Part shown: one piece after another, positions 19,251-64,000 of the stretch
How the letters are laid out: each line of letters opens with the position of its first letter
How positions within the stretch are numbered: the first letter of the stretch is position 1
Origin: Corallococcus sp. NCRR
GTDB lineage: Bacteria; Myxococcota; Myxococcia; Myxococcales; Myxococcaceae
Length of the DNA: 64,000 nt
Direction of reading: 5' to 3'
Assembly (NCBI RefSeq): GCF_026965535.1
Contig: NZ_CP114039.1
Coordinates: 7,006,001 to 7,070,000, forward strand
Translations under genes and position numbers: made by a program
The notes under the pieces: model-generated
What the model was told of the DNA's origin: nothing
The model's input: the letters and a program-made list of their open reading frames with translations, nothing else
Database searches by the model: none

Positions 19251-19388
19251 CGGCCGGCGTCCTTCTGGGGGGATGGGAACTTCGTCATGCGGAAGGGGCC
19301 GAAATTCCAGCCTTTACGAGCGCCGGAGGGACAGACCTCCTTAGCAATGCCTCCCAGGGGGGTCAAACATTTGAACAGGAACGGGCGT

Positions 19389-20402
19389 TCAGGGGATTCC
19401 CACGGCCCGTCTCACCTGGTCCATCAAACGGGTGGCTTCGGCCCGGGCGCGGTCGGCGCCGTCCTTGAGGATGCGCTCCAACTCACCCGGGTCGTTGAGC
19501 AGCTCCTGGCGGCGCTGGCGCGCGGGGCCGAAGGTGACGTGGAAGGCGTCCAGGAGCTTCTTCTTGAAGTCGCCGTAGCCCTTGCCGCCTGCCTTCCAGG
19601 ACGCGTCCACGTCGGAGAACTCACCGGGCGGGAGCATCAGCTTGAGCAGGTCATAGAGCGGCGCGTCCGTGGTGGGCTTGGGCGCGTCCACGGGCGTGGA
19701 GTCCGTCTTGATGGACATGATGCGCTTCTTGATGTCCTTCTCCTCGCCGAACAGCTCCAGCGTGTTGCCGTACGACTTGGACATCTTCTGTCCGTCGATG
19801 CCGGGCACCGTGGCGGCGTTCTCCTGCACGAAGGCGGCAGGGAGCTTGAGGATGCCGGGCGCGTGGCCCCGCTCCTTGCCTTCCGGATCCGCCGGGTCGT
19901 AGCCGGGGACGTACTGGGTGTTGAACTTCACGGCCCAGTCGCGCGCGAACTCGATGTGTTGGATCTGGTCCTTGCCCACCGGGACCTGATCCGCGCTGTA
20001 GAGCAGGATGTCCGCGGACATCAGGACGGGGTACGCGTAGAGGCCGAAGTCCGCGCTGATGCCCTTGGCGACCTTGTCCTTGTAGCTGTGGGCGCGCTCC
20101 AGGTGGGCCTGGGGCACCACGGTGCCGAGGATCCAGTTGAGCTCTAGGACCTCCTTCACGTCGCTCTGGCGGAAGAGGACGGCCTTCTTCGGATCCAGGC
20201 CCAGCGACAGGTACGTGAGCGCCGCGTCGCGCGTCAGATCCAGCGCGAGCTTGGGATCCCTCACGGTGGTGAGCGCGTGGTAGTTGGCGATGAAGTAGTA
20301 GGCCTCGCCCTGGTCCTGGAGCTGCACGAACTGCCGCATCGCCCCGTAATAGTTGCCGATGTGCAGCCTTCCGGACGACTGGACGCCTGAGAGAATCCGC
20401 AT
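19389..20402 (-). CDS. trpS: tryptophanyl-tRNA synthetase
   Basis: 337 aa starting MRILSGVQSSGRLHIGNYYG at ATG 20402. A further upstream in-frame codon would add 20 unlikely residues. The class I signatures are intact: HIGN within SGRLHIGNYYGAM and KMSKS within GQKMSKSYGN. The enzyme charges tRNA-Trp with tryptophan in the cytoplasm. The length is normal. It is first in the trpS-scpA-scpB-rluB run and divergent from the DUF4388 gene, with 245 bp between the starts. Confidence 0.97.
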   Translation of the reverse strand: MRILSGVQSSGRLHIGNYYGAMRQFVQLQDQGEAYYFIANYHALTTVRDPKLALDLTRDAALTYLSLGLDPKKAVLFRQSDVKEVLELNWILGTVVPQAHLERAHSYKDKVAKGISADFGLYAYPVLMSADILLYSADQVPVGKDQIQHIEFARDWAVKFNTQYVPGYDPADPEGKERGHAPGILKLPAAFVQENAATVPGIDGQKMSKSYGNTLELFGEEKDIKKRIMSIKTDSTPVDAPKPTTDAPLYDLLKLMLPPGEFSDVDASWKAGGKGYGDFKKKLLDAFHVTFGPARQRRQELLNDPGELERILKDGADRARAEATRLMDQVRRAVGIP

Positions 20403-58389: not shown

Positions 58390-58752
58390 GTGCCCTACGA
58401 GTTGAAGATGCTGGAGCTTGTCGAGCAGTTCGCCCAGAACGTAGTCGCGCAGAACGAGGCCATCTTCCGGGGAGACGCCAAGACCGGGAACAAGCACGCC
58501 AGGAAGTACGGTGCCGCCGTCGACAAGCTCTTCGCGCACGGCGATGCCGGACGTGACGCGCTCAGCGTGCTGCTCAAACACGAGCGAATGGATGTGCGCG
58601 TGATGGCCGCCGCCCATCTGCTCCGCTACCGGACGGCTGAAGCCAAGGCGGTCCTGGAAGATGCCGCCAAGGGACAAGGATTGGGCCCTTTCGGAGCACA
58701 GCAGGCATTGAAGCGTTGGGAAGAAGGGACGTGGGCGCTCGATCCAGGCTAA
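58390..58752 (+). CDS. orphan DUF2019-type immunity-like protein
   Basis: 120 aa from GTG at 58390. The sequence LVEQFAQNVVAQNEAIFRGDAK, NKHARKYGAAVDKLF and the ending EEGTWALDPG match the DUF2019 layout and length of the immunity protein at 22821. There is no adjacent toxin gene; an opposing kinase-like gene lies on one side. It may protect against toxins delivered by other strains. The IS630 element is inserted at the TA of its stop codon. Confidence 0.75.
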   Translation: MPYELKMLELVEQFAQNVVAQNEAIFRGDAKTGNKHARKYGAAVDKLFAHGDAGRDALSVLLKHERMDVRVMAAAHLLRYRTAEAKAVLEDAAKGQGLGPFGAQQALKRWEEGTWALDPG

Positions 58753-58770
58753 GTAGGCCGCCAGAAGTTC
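58750..58770. repeat. left terminal inverted repeat of the IS630 element
   Basis: 21 bp, 20 of 21 matching the right end in inverted orientation; the mismatch is C/T at the ninth position. Confidence 0.85.
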
Positions 58771-58807
58771 CGAGACAAATTCCGGCCGCATGCACAGTTT
58801 CTGATGC

Positions 58808-59741
58808 ATGCGACCGGCAAGGAGCCCTGCCGAACTGGGGCTGACAGCATACGACAGGCAGAAGCGGGCGCTGCGGCAGGCACGCGATGCCCGCCACTTC
58901 CGTCGCCTTCTGGCCATCAAGCTCATCGGCGAGGGTAAGAGCCCGGGCGAGGCCGCGCACCTGGCGGCCTTGAGCCGGCCGGCCGTCTACTTCTGGCTGG
59001 AGCGCTACCTGACGGAGCGCACCCCGTCTGCACTGGTGCATGCCCCGCGCTCGGGCCGCCCCAGAGCAGCCCCGCGTCTCACCTCCAAGCGTCTGCGCAG
59101 GGTGGTACGCACCAGCCCACAGAAGGCGGGATGGGCCAGCCATGGCTGGACGGTGCCGCTGCTATGCACCCACCTCAATCGGAAGGGTTTCGAGGTGTCA
59201 GCCCGTACGCTGCGCCGACGGTTGCATGAGGCGGGCCTGGCGTGGAAGCGACCGCGGTACGTGTACGCAACAGCAGCACCGCACCCGGGGCAAAAAAAAG
59301 TGGCCTTGTTCGCCGTCTGAAGCGGCTCAAGCGCCAGTGGCCCCGTGCGGTGCTGCTGGTCATGGACAGCACCGTGCTGCGCTGGTTTCCACCACTGCGC
59401 GCGGCGTGAGCTCCGGTGGCCGAGCAGTCGCTGGTGAAGATTACCGGCGAGAATGCCAAGAGCACGTTGTGGGGGGCCATCAATCCGCGCACCGGCACGC
59501 GTATCGTGATGGCGACCCGGCCAAGCAGCGCTCGGAACTCAACTGCATGGACCACCTTTGGCGTCCGCTCAAGCAGCGCGTTTCAGCCAACCGGCAGTAC
59601 CCGACGGTGGAGCAGCACGTCGACGCCGCACTCCAGTGGGTGCTGGGCCTTTCACCTCAGGACGCCCTCCGCAAGGCGGGCTGCCTCGCCGAGGGCTTCT
59701 GGCTGCGCGATTTGTTAGAGAACTTCTGGCGACCTACTTAG
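58808..59741 (+). pseudogene. IS630-family transposase, disrupted
   Basis: ATG at 58808. The first 170 residues form the N-terminal helix-turn-helix (HFRRLLAIKLIGEGKSPGEA, RPAVYFWLERYL) and part of the core. At an A8 run (59292-59299) the frame ends soon after, while the -1 frame continues as GLVRRLKRLKRQWPRAVLLV, including the first catalytic Asp region (VMDSTVLRWFPPLRAA). A TGA at 59407-59409 then stands where Trp is expected. The sequence resumes in frame (APVAEQ...LWGAINPRTGTRIVM), but a stretch including the second catalytic region is missing before ELNCMDHLWRPLKQRV in a third frame. The A-run slip could be a programmed -1 frameshift, as seen in some IS630 members, but the nonsense codon and deletion make it non-functional. 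Confidence 0.85.
59720..59740. repeat. right terminal inverted repeat of the IS630 element
   Basis: Inverted match to 58750-58770. It encodes the last codons of the transposase frame. Confidence 0.85.
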
Positions 59742-59971
59742 TCATACGAAGGCTTGTCGTGGCGCGATGCTTCAAGCAACCTTTCTGCCCACGGTACGGC
59801 TAGCATCCGGCCCGATGCAGTGGGCCCTTCAGCCTGATCGGCCCAGATGTTGTGGCTCCTTACCCTGCGAAGTGGCTCAACGTGCTGGGGACAGGGGTCG
59901 GTCTACTGACATTGTACTACTCCACCACCATCGCAATCACGGTGGGTCCGCATCAAGGTCGGGATATTCGA

Positions 59972-62900
59972 ATGACCGCTGTAGTTCCAGAAGCTCCGAC
60001 TCCATCGGCGCTGCCGCCGAGGCCCTGGAAAAGCGCTTCTTACTCCGACTGGAACGAATGGCTCTTCGCCCACACGTTCACCAGAAGCATGAGTCCGGAG
60101 CCGATCAGGTACATCCCGGCTTCCATCAAGGAACTCTGCATCATCGTGGGAGAGTCCCCCGAGCATGCGCAGGAGGTGCTGAAGGCCTTCTCGGATGCCA
60201 TCTGCCAGGAGCTCGACAAGGAGAGGTGCACCTTCGAGAGCTACTACCTCCAGTACCGTCTCCGCAGCGGTAGCCCCGACGCGTATTGGAGCCGCTTCAG
60301 CGACAAAGAGCCATACTTCTTCGGCTGCCTCTGGCTGACCTGCTTGGTTGCATCGGGCTACCCTCCGCATGAAGGGCAGTTCTATCCCCGCATGGGTCTG
60401 ATGCTTGGGAGACCTGTCAGCAGCTTCTCCTCCACCCGGGAGTCCGGCAGCCTGGAAGACGTCTGGGACGATCTCGCCGACTGGACGCAGTGCCATCGCG
60501 ACCGGCACCGGGAGCTGATCCTCCCACCACGCGACACCTATCGAAAGATCATCGGGCGCTCCTTTTATCTGGTCTTTCCCAACCACGCGGATCGGCTACA
60601 GCTGAGAGCTGTGCTGGAGAAAGCGGATCTGCTCGTGGACAAACCTCCCATCACGCCAGTGCTGGAGGCGTTGCGCCGCTCGAAACAGGTCTTCGGCAAG
60701 GAGTTCCAAAAGGAGTTGGACAGCTTCTTCAACAAGTACCTGCAGAGCGGCCGGGATCCAGGAGAGAGCCCGTTCTGGCGCGCCGTGGCGCAGGAGGCGA
60801 GTACGCCCGGTCTGGAACGGACGAGCGGGCTAGAGCGCACTGGCCATACCACGCTGATGGCTCGCCTCGACGAAGACGACCTGCTCGACCTCTACGTCGC
60901 CTGCACCGAGCAGTACGCCGACAGGCCCGGCTTCACCCGTGAAGATCTCGGCTTCAAGGCAGGAGATTTCAGCTACCGGTTCGTACCGGAAGCCTCCGCC
61001 CGTTCGCAGCGGCAGCCGTTCGAACAGCTCCTCACGAGCGCGGCCCGACGGGCCTTCGCGAGCGGTGTCGTGCCCTTGTTACGGGTCATCACGGGCGAGT
61101 ACCGGCTCGCCCATGGCGAAGAGCTGGCAGAGTGCGACCGTGCCCTCGTCCGCGATGACAGGGTCGAGGCCTTCGTGCGGACGTTTGGAGGGAAGAAGAC
61201 CCAGTGTGCGCTTCCAGGGTGGCGAGAGGTCGAAGGTTGCCAGCTACACCAGTTGGATTCGCCGCCCGAAGGACTTGAGGGCGTCTACGCGCTTCTCCAT
61301 ACGACGGAGCCCCAACGACCTCACTTCGTGGGAGGGCTACGCACCTCGATGGGCGGTTTCTATCGGCTGAACGGCTACCTGCCACGCATCCACGCGCCCG
61401 GCGCCGAGAAGGTCGAGGTCGCCGTCGCAGGCTCGTGGTTACCGTGCCAACGCATCACTGACGAGCAACAGGCAGCGGAGTGGCACCTTCCCGCAGGCCT
61501 TGACCTCAAGGCTCTCGACGAGTTGCACGTGGCTGCGACCTGGAAGGTGCACATCGAAGGCTATGCCCTGGAGCGCCGGGGCGAGGCGAAGGTCTCCCTG
61601 GATGCCTTGAGCCTCGCGATCGACCATAAGGGGCTGCCGAGCGGAGACTTCTGGCTTGAGACGACCTCGCGCCGGCTCAAGACCCTCCGCGGCCCGGTGG
61701 GCGAGATTCCCCTGGGCCTTACGACCTGGGACCGCACCCGCACCATGGACATGCTGTTCTTCGATGCGACGGCGCGCTGGCTCGGGCCCGGCGTCGGAGA
61801 GATGTCCCTCGTGGCTATCAAGGGTTTTCCGTGGCTGGCCATCGGCCCCAACAACTCCCCGACGATGATCGTCTTCGTCGGAGACGCGCCAAAACCGGTC
61901 CTGCCGGACGACGACTTCTCGCCTCTTCAAAAAGACCGGCGCCACTGGAAGCGGGCCTTCTCGGGAGAGACCGGCTCCGTCTTCGTTCGGGAGGGCTCCG
62001 AGTACGTGCCGATCGTCGAGCGGCACGAGGCGCGGACCATCCACTCCGCCTACGTGAAGGCTGCACACTCCAGTGTCCGTCCGGCAGGGAGCGAGTGTGC
62101 ACCGACGGACCTGGACAGGTACCTCCAGGACACGAAAAAGGTGAGCGGCGACTACTCCAGGGAGGCCGCGCTCCTGCTGGATGTCCTCTCCTCCATCGCG
62201 CACAGCCGCAGCGGCATCCCCCTGCGGGAAGTCCACGAGCACCTAGCCCGGCTCACGCACACGGACGAGCACCACTCACTGCGCTACCACCTGCTCCGGT
62301 CGCTGGCAGAGGTGGGCGCCATCGATACACTGCTGCGCTTGAATGGCAGGCAGACGCTCGTCGTGGCCCGCAAGCCGCGGCTCGTCATCTCCCGGCGGGG
62401 AAACCGCTTCAGCGGCACCGTGCTGGGCCTACTGCCGCAGACGATCTCCAGGCGCGTTGAGCCGGAGAGCCGTAAGCACGGCCTGCAGGTGACCTACGCG
62501 GCGCCCCCCAACCGCTTCCAACCTCCCATCATCCACCTGGAGGCGGAAGATGGAGCCCTAGAGCCGCTCAAGGCCCTCTCCTGGGAGCTGGCCTTCGCCC
62601 CGCCTGAGTTCATCGACTGGCCCGAAGCGTCCCTCGTCCCCCCGCATTTCACCGTCTGCGACGAACTCGCGCGGGACGAGCCTCCGGAGATGTATGTGCG
62701 CGAGGCGACCTGGTGCTGGAAGAGTGGCGCCTTCAAGTTGAACGCGGAAGAGCCGGGCGAGGTGAGCATCGAGCGGCGCAGTGATGGCCAGCGCACCCCC
62801 ATCTACGTCGTCACCCGGGCAGGGACACCCATGGGATGGAGCTACTCCCGAGCGTGGGCGCTCCTGGATGCCGCGGAGAAGGCGGGGCGGCCGCCCTTCA

Positions 62901-63127
62901 CGCTTGAGGGCGGAGTGCTCCGAGCCATGGCCCACGCCCCCTTGCACCTGCCTCTGCCGCTGGCCCGCCTGTGCACGGTGGTCGGCGCTGGGGCGCCCGG
63001 CCCATGCATCGAGGAGCGCGCAGGCCGCCCGGTGGTCACCTCATACGTCTATCCGTTCGGCAGGAAGCTCGCCCCGCTAGCCGCGCGGGCAGTTCCCGAG
63101 TCGTGGATTCAAAGGAAGGTGGAGTGA
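59972..63127 (+). CDS. large unknown protein, candidate DruH-like defence component
   Basis: 1051 aa from ATG at 59972 (MTAVVPEAPTPSALPPRPWK), preferred over an earlier in-frame start that would add a poor 40-residue segment. The stop overlaps the helicase start by one base (TGATG), so both are translated together. The N-terminal third is helical (WNEWLFAHTFTRSMSPEPI). Middle and C-terminal thirds contain mixed alpha/beta sequence without a motif I recognise. Type III Druantia systems consist of DruH, about this size, followed by the DruE helicase. I infer this from size, order and the partner gene only. Confidence 0.5.
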   Translation: MTAVVPEAPTPSALPPRPWKSASYSDWNEWLFAHTFTRSMSPEPIRYIPASIKELCIIVGESPEHAQEVLKAFSDAICQELDKERCTFESYYLQYRLRSGSPDAYWSRFSDKEPYFFGCLWLTCLVASGYPPHEGQFYPRMGLMLGRPVSSFSSTRESGSLEDVWDDLADWTQCHRDRHRELILPPRDTYRKIIGRSFYLVFPNHADRLQLRAVLEKADLLVDKPPITPVLEALRRSKQVFGKEFQKELDSFFNKYLQSGRDPGESPFWRAVAQEASTPGLERTSGLERTGHTTLMARLDEDDLLDLYVACTEQYADRPGFTREDLGFKAGDFSYRFVPEASARSQRQPFEQLLTSAARRAFASGVVPLLRVITGEYRLAHGEELAECDRALVRDDRVEAFVRTFGGKKTQCALPGWREVEGCQLHQLDSPPEGLEGVYALLHTTEPQRPHFVGGLRTSMGGFYRLNGYLPRIHAPGAEKVEVAVAGSWLPCQRITDEQQAAEWHLPAGLDLKALDELHVAATWKVHIEGYALERRGEAKVSLDALSLAIDHKGLPSGDFWLETTSRRLKTLRGPVGEIPLGLTTWDRTRTMDMLFFDATARWLGPGVGEMSLVAIKGFPWLAIGPNNSPTMIVFVGDAPKPVLPDDDFSPLQKDRRHWKRAFSGETGSVFVREGSEYVPIVERHEARTIHSAYVKAAHSSVRPAGSECAPTDLDRYLQDTKKVSGDYSREAALLLDVLSSIAHSRSGIPLREVHEHLARLTHTDEHHSLRYHLLRSLAEVGAIDTLLRLNGRQTLVVARKPRLVISRRGNRFSGTVLGLLPQTISRRVEPESRKHGLQVTYAAPPNRFQPPIIHLEAEDGALEPLKALSWELAFAPPEFIDWPEASLVPPHFTVCDELARDEPPEMYVREATWCWKSGAFKLNAEEPGEVSIERRSDGQRTPIYVVTRAGTPMGWSYSRAWALLDAAEKAGRPPFTLEGGVLRAMAHAPLHLPLPLARLCTVVGAGAPGPCIEERAGRPVVTSYVYPFGRKLAPLAARAVPESWIQRKVE

Positions 63128-64000
63128 TGCAGGACCCCATTGGAAACTTCGAGCGCATCCGCGAGCTCTACATCAGCTACCTCGATACCGCCTTCCGCAT
63201 CGGTGACGAGAGCGTGGCCGAGGAGCGGCGCCGGCTGCTGCGCCAGCCCGGCACCTTCTGCACCGAGCCGCTCATTGAGGCCATTCCCCGGTACGAGCCT
63301 GCGGAGCTGTCCTTCGACGCGCTCTACCAGGACACCTCACCCGAGGGTCCCCTGGCCAGCTTCACAGAGCCAGCGCGGCGCGCGTTCATCGACCTGACCC
63401 TGGCGGGGCTGTTCGGCTCGGAGCCTCAGGAGAAGGGCAGCCTGCCGCTGAAGCGCAAAGCGAAGTACGCGCCCTATCGTCACCAGCTCCAGATGCTGCA
63501 CCGGGGCGTGCGGCCCGGCATGCCTGGCGTCGTCACCTCCGGCACGGGCTCGGGCAAGACGGAATCTTTCATGCTGCCCCTGCTGGCGCGGATCTCCCAG
63601 GAGGCCGTCGGCTGGGAGGCCCCCGGGAAGGGCTACCTTGAGCAGCACTGGTGGATCGATCCGGCGACAGGGCAGCCCTACTCCGAGGAGAAGAAGGGGC
63701 GGCGCTACCTCGCGCTGCCCAAGCACAAGCGGCCCGACGCAAAGAATCCCCTAAACACCGCCTTCGCGCGGCACCGCGCGGGCGAGAAGCGCATGGCGGC
63801 GGTCCGCGCGCTCGTCCTGTACCCGATGAACGCCCTGGTCGAGGACCAGCTCGTGCGCCTGCGCAAGGCGCTCGACTCTGCCGAGGCGCGCGAGGCCATG
63901 AAGGAGCACTTTCATGGCAACCGCATCTTCTTCGGCCGCTACATCGGCGCCACCGAGGTCACCGGCCATCCCGGCTCGACGAGCACCCCTCGCGGGCTGG
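63127..64000 (+). CDS. DEAD-type helicase, candidate DruE-like (C-terminus outside window)
   Basis: Visible 291 residues from ATG at 63127, coupled to the upstream gene by TGATG. A Q-motif-like YAPYRHQLQML is followed by Walker A VTSGTGSGKTESF (about 136-148) and motif Ia LVLYPMNALVEDQLVRL. The wording YPMNALVEDQ and NRIFFGRYIGAT is typical of large DUF1998-type defence helicases such as DruE and DrmA. Alternatives are a DISARM DrmA or Dpd-cluster helicase; no methylase or other DISARM gene is upstream. Motifs II-VI and the DUF1998 region fall outside the window. Confidence 0.6.
   Translation, partial: MQDPIGNFERIRELYISYLDTAFRIGDESVAEERRRLLRQPGTFCTEPLIEAIPRYEPAELSFDALYQDTSPEGPLASFTEPARRAFIDLTLAGLFGSEPQEKGSLPLKRKAKYAPYRHQLQMLHRGVRPGMPGVVTSGTGSGKTESFMLPLLARISQEAVGWEAPGKGYLEQHWWIDPATGQPYSEEKKGRRYLALPKHKRPDAKNPLNTAFARHRAGEKRMAAVRALVLYPMNALVEDQLVRLRKALDSAEAREAMKEHFHGNRIFFGRYIGATEVTGHPGSTSTPRGL

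Follow-up and report, generated by a model that had tools for sequence, protein, structure and literature searches.

A five-gene Druantia-family operon with a DruK nuclease gene in Corallococcus sp. NCRR

A 64,000 bp stretch of the Corallococcus sp. NCRR genome (positions 7006001-7070000 of the 9.79-Mb single contig NZ_CP114039.1; hereafter the window) ends within a group of defence-like genes that the initial annotation described as a two-gene unit, consisting of a large protein of 1,051 amino acids (aa) and a helicase. With the 30 kb downstream of the window end added and its open reading frames (ORFs) listed, the helicase gene is seen to extend to 69741 and to be followed by three more genes to 72592 (window-equivalent coordinates). 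The unit has five genes instead of two, and it is well supported that the locus is a complete operon of the Druantia family, druF-druE-druK-vsr-druM; membership in that family is close to certain. Rather than a new kind of system, it is an uncommon variant of one already described, and a nuclease gene takes the place of a usual subunit. We consider it moderately probable that it represents a complete anti-phage operon from a DruG-less clade lying beside Druantia type II, in which DruK follows the helicase.

The five genes and their products

The components of the operon are listed below; positions in L002 are window positions minus 54000.

59972-63127, + strand: druF-like gene, 1,051 aa
63127-69741 (63127-64000 in the window; L002 9127-15741), + strand: druE helicase gene, 2,204 aa
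69738-70952 (window-equivalent), + strand: druK, PD-(D/E)XK nuclease, 404 aa, overlapping druE by 4 nt
70959-71411 (window-equivalent), + strand: vsr, Vsr endonuclease, 150 aa
71408-72592 (window-equivalent), + strand: druM, C5-cytosine methylase, 394 aa, overlapping vsr by 4 nt
59737-72592 (59737-64000 in the window), + strand: five-gene unit, the span common to this genome and Corallococcus terminator, from blastn of two C. terminator contigs

The five genes are consecutive and co-directional, and three of the four junctions overlap. At the first of these the druF-like stop codon (63125-63127) overlaps the druE start codon at 63127 in a TGATG, the coupling initially annotated. The best PADLOC names in gene order are DruF2, DruE2, DruK, Vsr and DruM2, which bears out the earlier suggestion of a Druantia-type defence unit, and the Pfam families recognised in the last four proteins are DEAD, Helicase_C, PDDEXK_1, Vsr and DNA_methylase.

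The 1,051-aa protein was first reported to lack any recognisable motif, and it has no match in Pfam (E<=1) or in NCBIfam (E<=0.1). Its reading frame is nonetheless kept nearly end to end in three other genomes, at 76%, 33-34% and 25-26% identity, and is therefore not a chance ORF. PADLOC DruF2 matches it at 1.9e-23, with the best stretch at residues 25-313, and none of the PADLOC DruH models matches at E<=1. When a profile built from four relatives is compared with canonical type II DruF, the alignment covers 786 columns, nearly the full length (probability 100%, E 6.7e-41 and 4.1e-41); with type IV DruF it runs across model positions 8-649 (probability 97.6%). Because the alignment with type II DruF is nearly full length, the protein is, on profile comparison, a divergent, full-length DruF; the initial annotation had allowed that the large subunit might be some other partner than the one it named, and DruF is that partner. 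DruF proteins of loci with the order druF-druE-druK (F-E-K) are 1,003-1,052 aa, compared with 837-927 aa in type II. A fusion of DruF with DruG was ruled out, since similarity between the DruF-like and DruG profiles was not found (probability 0.7%).

The C-terminus of DruF may be linked to DruL, and then only indirectly: a direct comparison gave no significant match, canonical DruF aligns with the DruL profile at 61% probability, and PADLOC DruF2 models match DruL proteins, the best at 3e-11. A Shinella plasmid carries an ORF of about 1,035 aa (L030 5904-9011) that matches both the type IV DruF (1.4e-17) and the DruL (1.6e-13) profiles and is a probable natural F-L fusion. This ORF and the PADLOC cross-matches suggest that the 1,051-aa protein might likewise combine DruF and DruL, a reading that the non-significant direct comparison does not bear out. 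Residues ~728-818 of DruF give the impression of a winged helix, and the Zur-like Protein Data Bank (PDB) matches there are not significant (E 0.19 and 0.35).

The helicase matches PADLOC DruE2 with E=0 and 1825 bits. Superfamily 2 (SF2) motifs I (SGTGSGKT, residue 138), II (LDELH, 510), III (SASLP, 553) and VI (QRVGRAGR, 1495) are present, as is an intact C-x3-C-x2-C cluster ending in LDW (residue 2046 on) that is DUF1998/MZB-like and is shared by 16 of the 18 helicases compared. The initial assignment to the DUF1998 class agrees with these features, though the Pfam DUF1998 model itself has no match at E<=0.1. The protein is about 200 aa longer than type II DruE, the four complete F-E-K ORFs being 2,151-2,233 aa and the six type II ORFs 1,935-1,968 aa. 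A 1,970-aa chain deposited as 'Helicase' in PDB 9WAE and six other entries scores 1,145 bits against DruE of this locus and 1,675 bits against the Roseomonas type II DruE; by these scores a type II-like DruE, outside the clade of this locus, has already been solved. A literature search that covered few subscription journals found no publication behind this group of structures, and profiles of DruG and DruF against the PDB gave no convincing partner chain.

The third gene product matches PADLOC DruK at 1e-15, with residues 158-341 alone aligned, and Pfam PDDEXK_1 at 69 bits. Invariant in all four DruK proteins are G54-x-L56-x-H58, G175-x2-D178, D192-x-K194 and Q212-x3-Y216, together with one N-terminal (31) and three C-terminal (279, 282 and 288) cysteines, a combination that we take to be the 4Fe-4S iron-sulfur (Fe-S) nuclease signature of AddB, Cas4 and Dna2. 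In its predicted catalytic residues and cysteine set, DruK fits the pattern of an Fe-S PD-(D/E)XK nuclease of the AddB/Cas4 type. The nearest solved chains are those of UvrD/Rep-type DNA helicases (7sjr and 6ppu, presumably the helicase-nuclease AdnAB) and that of 4ic1, which is listed as an uncharacterized protein of 206 aa and is presumably a Cas4. DruK is not a new component, because PADLOC-DB already names it (models PDLC00058-60), where it was linked to Druantia by 2023; no paper naming both Druantia and DruK was found in a literature search that covered few subscription journals.

Vsr is recognised by TIGR00632 (125 bits, cutoff 97.85) and PADLOC Vsr (4.4e-26), and T34, E37, D63 and H81, which we take to be its catalytic residues, are invariant in 5/5 proteins. 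The initial annotation had counted a downstream methylase or other DISARM genes against its proposal. A methylase is present (Pfam DNA_methylase, 164 bits), but it matches DruM2 (3.1e-97) ahead of DISARM DrmMII (2.1e-37). DISARM was rejected: besides the weaker DrmMII match, DrmA matches only locally (2.9e-9 over 83 residues), and there is no DrmB or DrmC among the PADLOC matches listed, where the helicase is represented by its best 25 of 35 rows and the methylase by its best 25 of 60. The type I proteins DruA-DruD are likewise not among these listed matches.

Relationship to other Druantia loci

A DruF relative is present in four of 147 genomes of the class, two of which are among the 16 genomes of the genus, and the DruF profile matches 4/195 genomes of the phylum. 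DruK (PDLC00058) is found in the identical four genomes, of 193, and DruE at more than 900 bits in the same 4/147, with some weaker helicase match in 110 of the 147. Among 72,556 plasmid records, DruF is matched in Rubrobacter marinus (89% covered) and Rhizobium sp. WSM4643 (21%) and DruK in Rubrobacter alone; DruE matched 40 plasmid records, 14 of which were taken for reading by rank and variety and not at random. A wider DruF scan of genome contigs recovered two loci, the known C. terminator and Anaeromyxobacter copies, and no DruF was found in viral contigs and phages. A literature search found nothing on Druantia with Corallococcus.

The gene beside druE in 17 loci is DruG in six (type II), DruL in five and, by weaker or fused matches, in two more (type IV-like), and DruK in four, namely this locus, two Anaeromyxobacter-type genomes (G016 and G015) and the Rubrobacter plasmid. 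The remaining 13 loci gave no DruK match. Most of these rows had also gone into the gene-set profiles, so that the matches are partly by construction. With the single DruK of this locus as query the same four loci are matched and none besides. Corallococcus terminator, which lies outside the 17-locus set, also has druK, vsr and druM. DruG is unmatched at E<=0.1 in all five F-E-K genomes or records, whereas a held-out DruG locus (L031) is matched at 1.2e-13. In a maximum-likelihood tree of 18 helicases, which has few taxa, some long branches and uneven composition, the five F-E-K rows (this locus, C. terminator, G015, G016 and the Rubrobacter plasmid) form one clade (98/98) beside the six type II rows (100/100), and the five type IV rows fall in two places outside both groups.

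The genes druF, druE and druK are adjacent, with a C5 methylase and Vsr within ~6 kb, in all four readable loci (this one, G016, G015 and Rubrobacter). A methylase is also near druE in 6/6 type II loci (by phmmer match in five and by annotation in one), as is Vsr (6/6); the type IV-like loci have a methylase in 3/7 and Vsr in 1/7, counts in which L025 begins at the first base of its record and its upstream side is not covered. Druantia type II (DruM, DruF, DruG, DruE) has the helicase clade closest to that of this locus, a DruF homologous over nearly its whole length, and likewise a C5 methylase and Vsr close by; the locus differs from it in being without DruG, in having DruK after druE, and in gene order. 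DruE and DruF are held in common with type IV (DruE, DruF, DruL), which differs in that there is no separate DruL here, DruM and Vsr are present, and the helicase groups with type II. According to the PADLOC paper (PMC8565338), DruM and DruG are requisite for type II, and type IV is defined by DruL without DruM and DruG; by its predicted gene content the locus falls outside both definitions.

On the Rubrobacter marinus plasmid (L012 13965-17121, 25054-28480) druF is spread over several frames, and downstream of druK lie genes for a GHKL-type ATPase and an Mrr-type endonuclease; this DruF copy is probably inactive, unless the record is faulty. In Anaeromyxobacter, a phage-type integrase gene (L008 4378-6096) lies before the unit and Z1 and DUF4420 genes (L009 8017-11673) come after it, surroundings like those of a mobile defence island. 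A small gene conserved upstream was considered and rejected: the candidates of 165 aa (G016) and 157 aa (G015) do not match one another significantly, and neither has a counterpart in the window.

Flanking sequences and an apparent exchange of druF

Comparison with C. terminator suggests that the parts of the operon have separate histories. All five genes are present there in identical order, split over two contigs, and the match ends at the druM stop codon. DNA identity is 95% for the part of druE compared, 94% for druK, 92% for vsr and 95% for druM, and only 82% for druF; synonymous divergence (dS) is about three times as high in druF, at 0.47 (95% interval 0.39-0.55), as in the remaining four, at 0.15 (0.14-0.17). 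Codons 1-138 of druE, which lie on the same C. terminator contig as druF, are 94.9% identical with a dS of 0.14. The housekeeping gene mutS is 90% identical between the two species, less than the core and more than druF, and the simplest reading of this one pair is that the core was recently transferred and that druF was replaced as a cassette. The C. terminator druE is interrupted near the motif I/Walker A codons (L042 start, L043 start), and the two contig matches overlap by 8 nt, as would be left by insertion of an insertion sequence (IS).

The operon lies at a site with signs of mobility. Two features, given as context, precede it:

58390-58752: DUF2019 gene, directly before the IS relic (25.8 bits, cutoff 23.3)
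58749-59741, strand not assigned: relic of an IS630-like element whose 22-bp terminal inverted repeats differ at one base and whose transposase frame is broken

The first ORF of the relic matches HTH_29, HTH_32 and HTH_33 with a sub-threshold Tc3 match, and the decayed IS of the initial annotation is confirmed as an IS630/Tc-type transposase relic. The gene before it, called an orphan immunity gene at first, is indeed there and is identified as a DUF2019 gene. A second DUF2019-type paralogue at 73895-74229 (L002 ~19895 into L003), with 72% DNA identity to the first, adjoins mutS, so the unit is flanked on both sides by such paralogues; mutS lies ~1.7 kb from the end of the unit. Relatives G059 and G070 have the same neighbourhood without the unit and with a DUF2019-type gene beside mutS. 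Third-codon-position GC content (GC3) is 0.71-0.88 in the five operon genes and 0.96 in mutS. Transposase remnants lie 3' of the operon (L002 18904-19323, + strand, and 19266-19793, - strand), one IS5-like by eye and one matching Pfam HTH_Tnp_1.

Proposed mechanism and alternative interpretations

An anti-phage defence role is likely for the unit. A mechanism for the DruF-containing Druantia types was not found described in the literature searched, and the roles proposed here are drawn by analogy from published type III work. Wu et al. report that type III DruE loads on 3' single-stranded DNA and suggest that its activation is set by partner proteins (PMC13192584); a second study describes a required DruH-DruE interaction and activation by a minor tail protein (PMC13316683). 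Inactivated C-terminal nucleases are predicted by Bell et al. for Druantia I and II helicases (PMC12458937). By analogy, DruM would mark self by methylating cytosines at a site in the host DNA, and Vsr would repair the T:G mismatches left by 5-methylcytosine deamination. DruF, as sensor or adaptor, would select the DNA or phage trigger to be engaged. DruE would load where single strands are exposed in phage DNA that is entering the cell or replicating, and would unwind that DNA. DruK would cut or resect the unwound DNA, providing in trans the nuclease reported lost by type I and II DruE. We offer this outline tentatively and with somewhat less than even confidence. It is also possible, and in our view rather doubtful, that the F-E-K loci are a distinct subtype in which DruG is replaced by an Fe-S PD-(D/E)XK nuclease serving in trans a nuclease-dead helicase, and in which DruF is a swappable recognition cassette, HsdS-like, on a nearly unchanged core.

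Several observations weigh against the favoured interpretation of the locus. The F-E-K loci found total five, and two of the five copies (C. terminator druE and Rubrobacter druF) look inactive, unless the records are faulty. The cassette exchange is drawn from one species pair, and the dead nuclease of DruE from a published claim for type I and II helicases. Structure models of full-length DruF and of a C-terminal piece of 181 aa, built from three sequences each, have mean predicted local distance difference test (pLDDT) scores of 41 and 53, too low to lend the sensor role any support. The weakest link is the self-marking role of DruM, the position and family of which vary among F-E-K loci. 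The druM and vsr genes are downstream on the same strand here and in G015, downstream on the opposite strand in G016, and upstream in Rubrobacter, and the best match of the G015 methylase is to another family (PADLOC MTase_II, PDLC03324); since family, position and strand all vary, the methylase may be a loose companion.

These last observations favour an alternative that we regard as unlikely, in which DruM and Vsr are a separate pair of solitary methylase and mismatch-repair enzyme, and druF-druE-druK alone defends without a methylation mark. The low counts of methylase and Vsr in type IV-like loci (3/7 and 1/7, with the uncovered side of L025) point the same way. It is opposed by the nearby methylase and Vsr in 4/4 readable F-E-K and 6/6 type II loci, by the 4-nt overlap of vsr and druM and their 92-95% identity to C. 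terminator, in line with druE and druK, and by the place of DruM as a requisite of type II in the PADLOC paper (PMC8565338).

Considerably less probable is that the locus is a normal type II Druantia from which DruG has been lost, with DruK an incidental neighbour of no role. The helicase is indeed nearest to type II and the DruM2 and DruF2 models match, but DruK directly follows druE in the four readable loci, which span two phyla, and in C. terminator, and here overlaps it by 4 nt; moreover the F-E-K helicases form their own clade, and DruG is unmatched in all five genomes or records searched, while the held-out control locus was matched.

That the genes encode a helicase-nuclease for DNA repair and not phage defence is very improbable. 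The YprA family also includes repair enzymes, according to Bell et al. (PMC12458937), DruK resembles parts of UvrD/Rep-type helicase chains, and mutS is close by. Against repair stand the patchy distribution (4/147 class and 2/16 genus genomes), the absence of the unit from the same site in G059 and G070, the low GC3 and mobile flanks, and the location of further copies, one of them on a plasmid and one next to a phage integrase. Finally, the type III (DruH-DruE) assignment of the initial annotation can be set aside as extremely improbable: a large partner gene overlapping the helicase gene resembles type III in size and order, as in the Mycobacterium smegmatis pair of 1,132 and 1,667 aa (PMC13316683), but the partner matches DruF2 and no DruH, the helicase scores 275 bits with DruE3 against 1825 with DruE2, and three further genes belong to the operon.

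We favour, as before, a complete anti-phage operon of a DruG-less clade beside type II. With DruG absent and a recognisable nuclease beside the helicase, the identity of the effector becomes testable, and a species pair with cores 92-95% identical and sharply different druF genes is a ready subunit-swap case for phage specificity of DruF. Should the mechanism prove wrong, the locus would remain a complete and clean representative, from the myxobacteria, of a Druantia branch that is rare.

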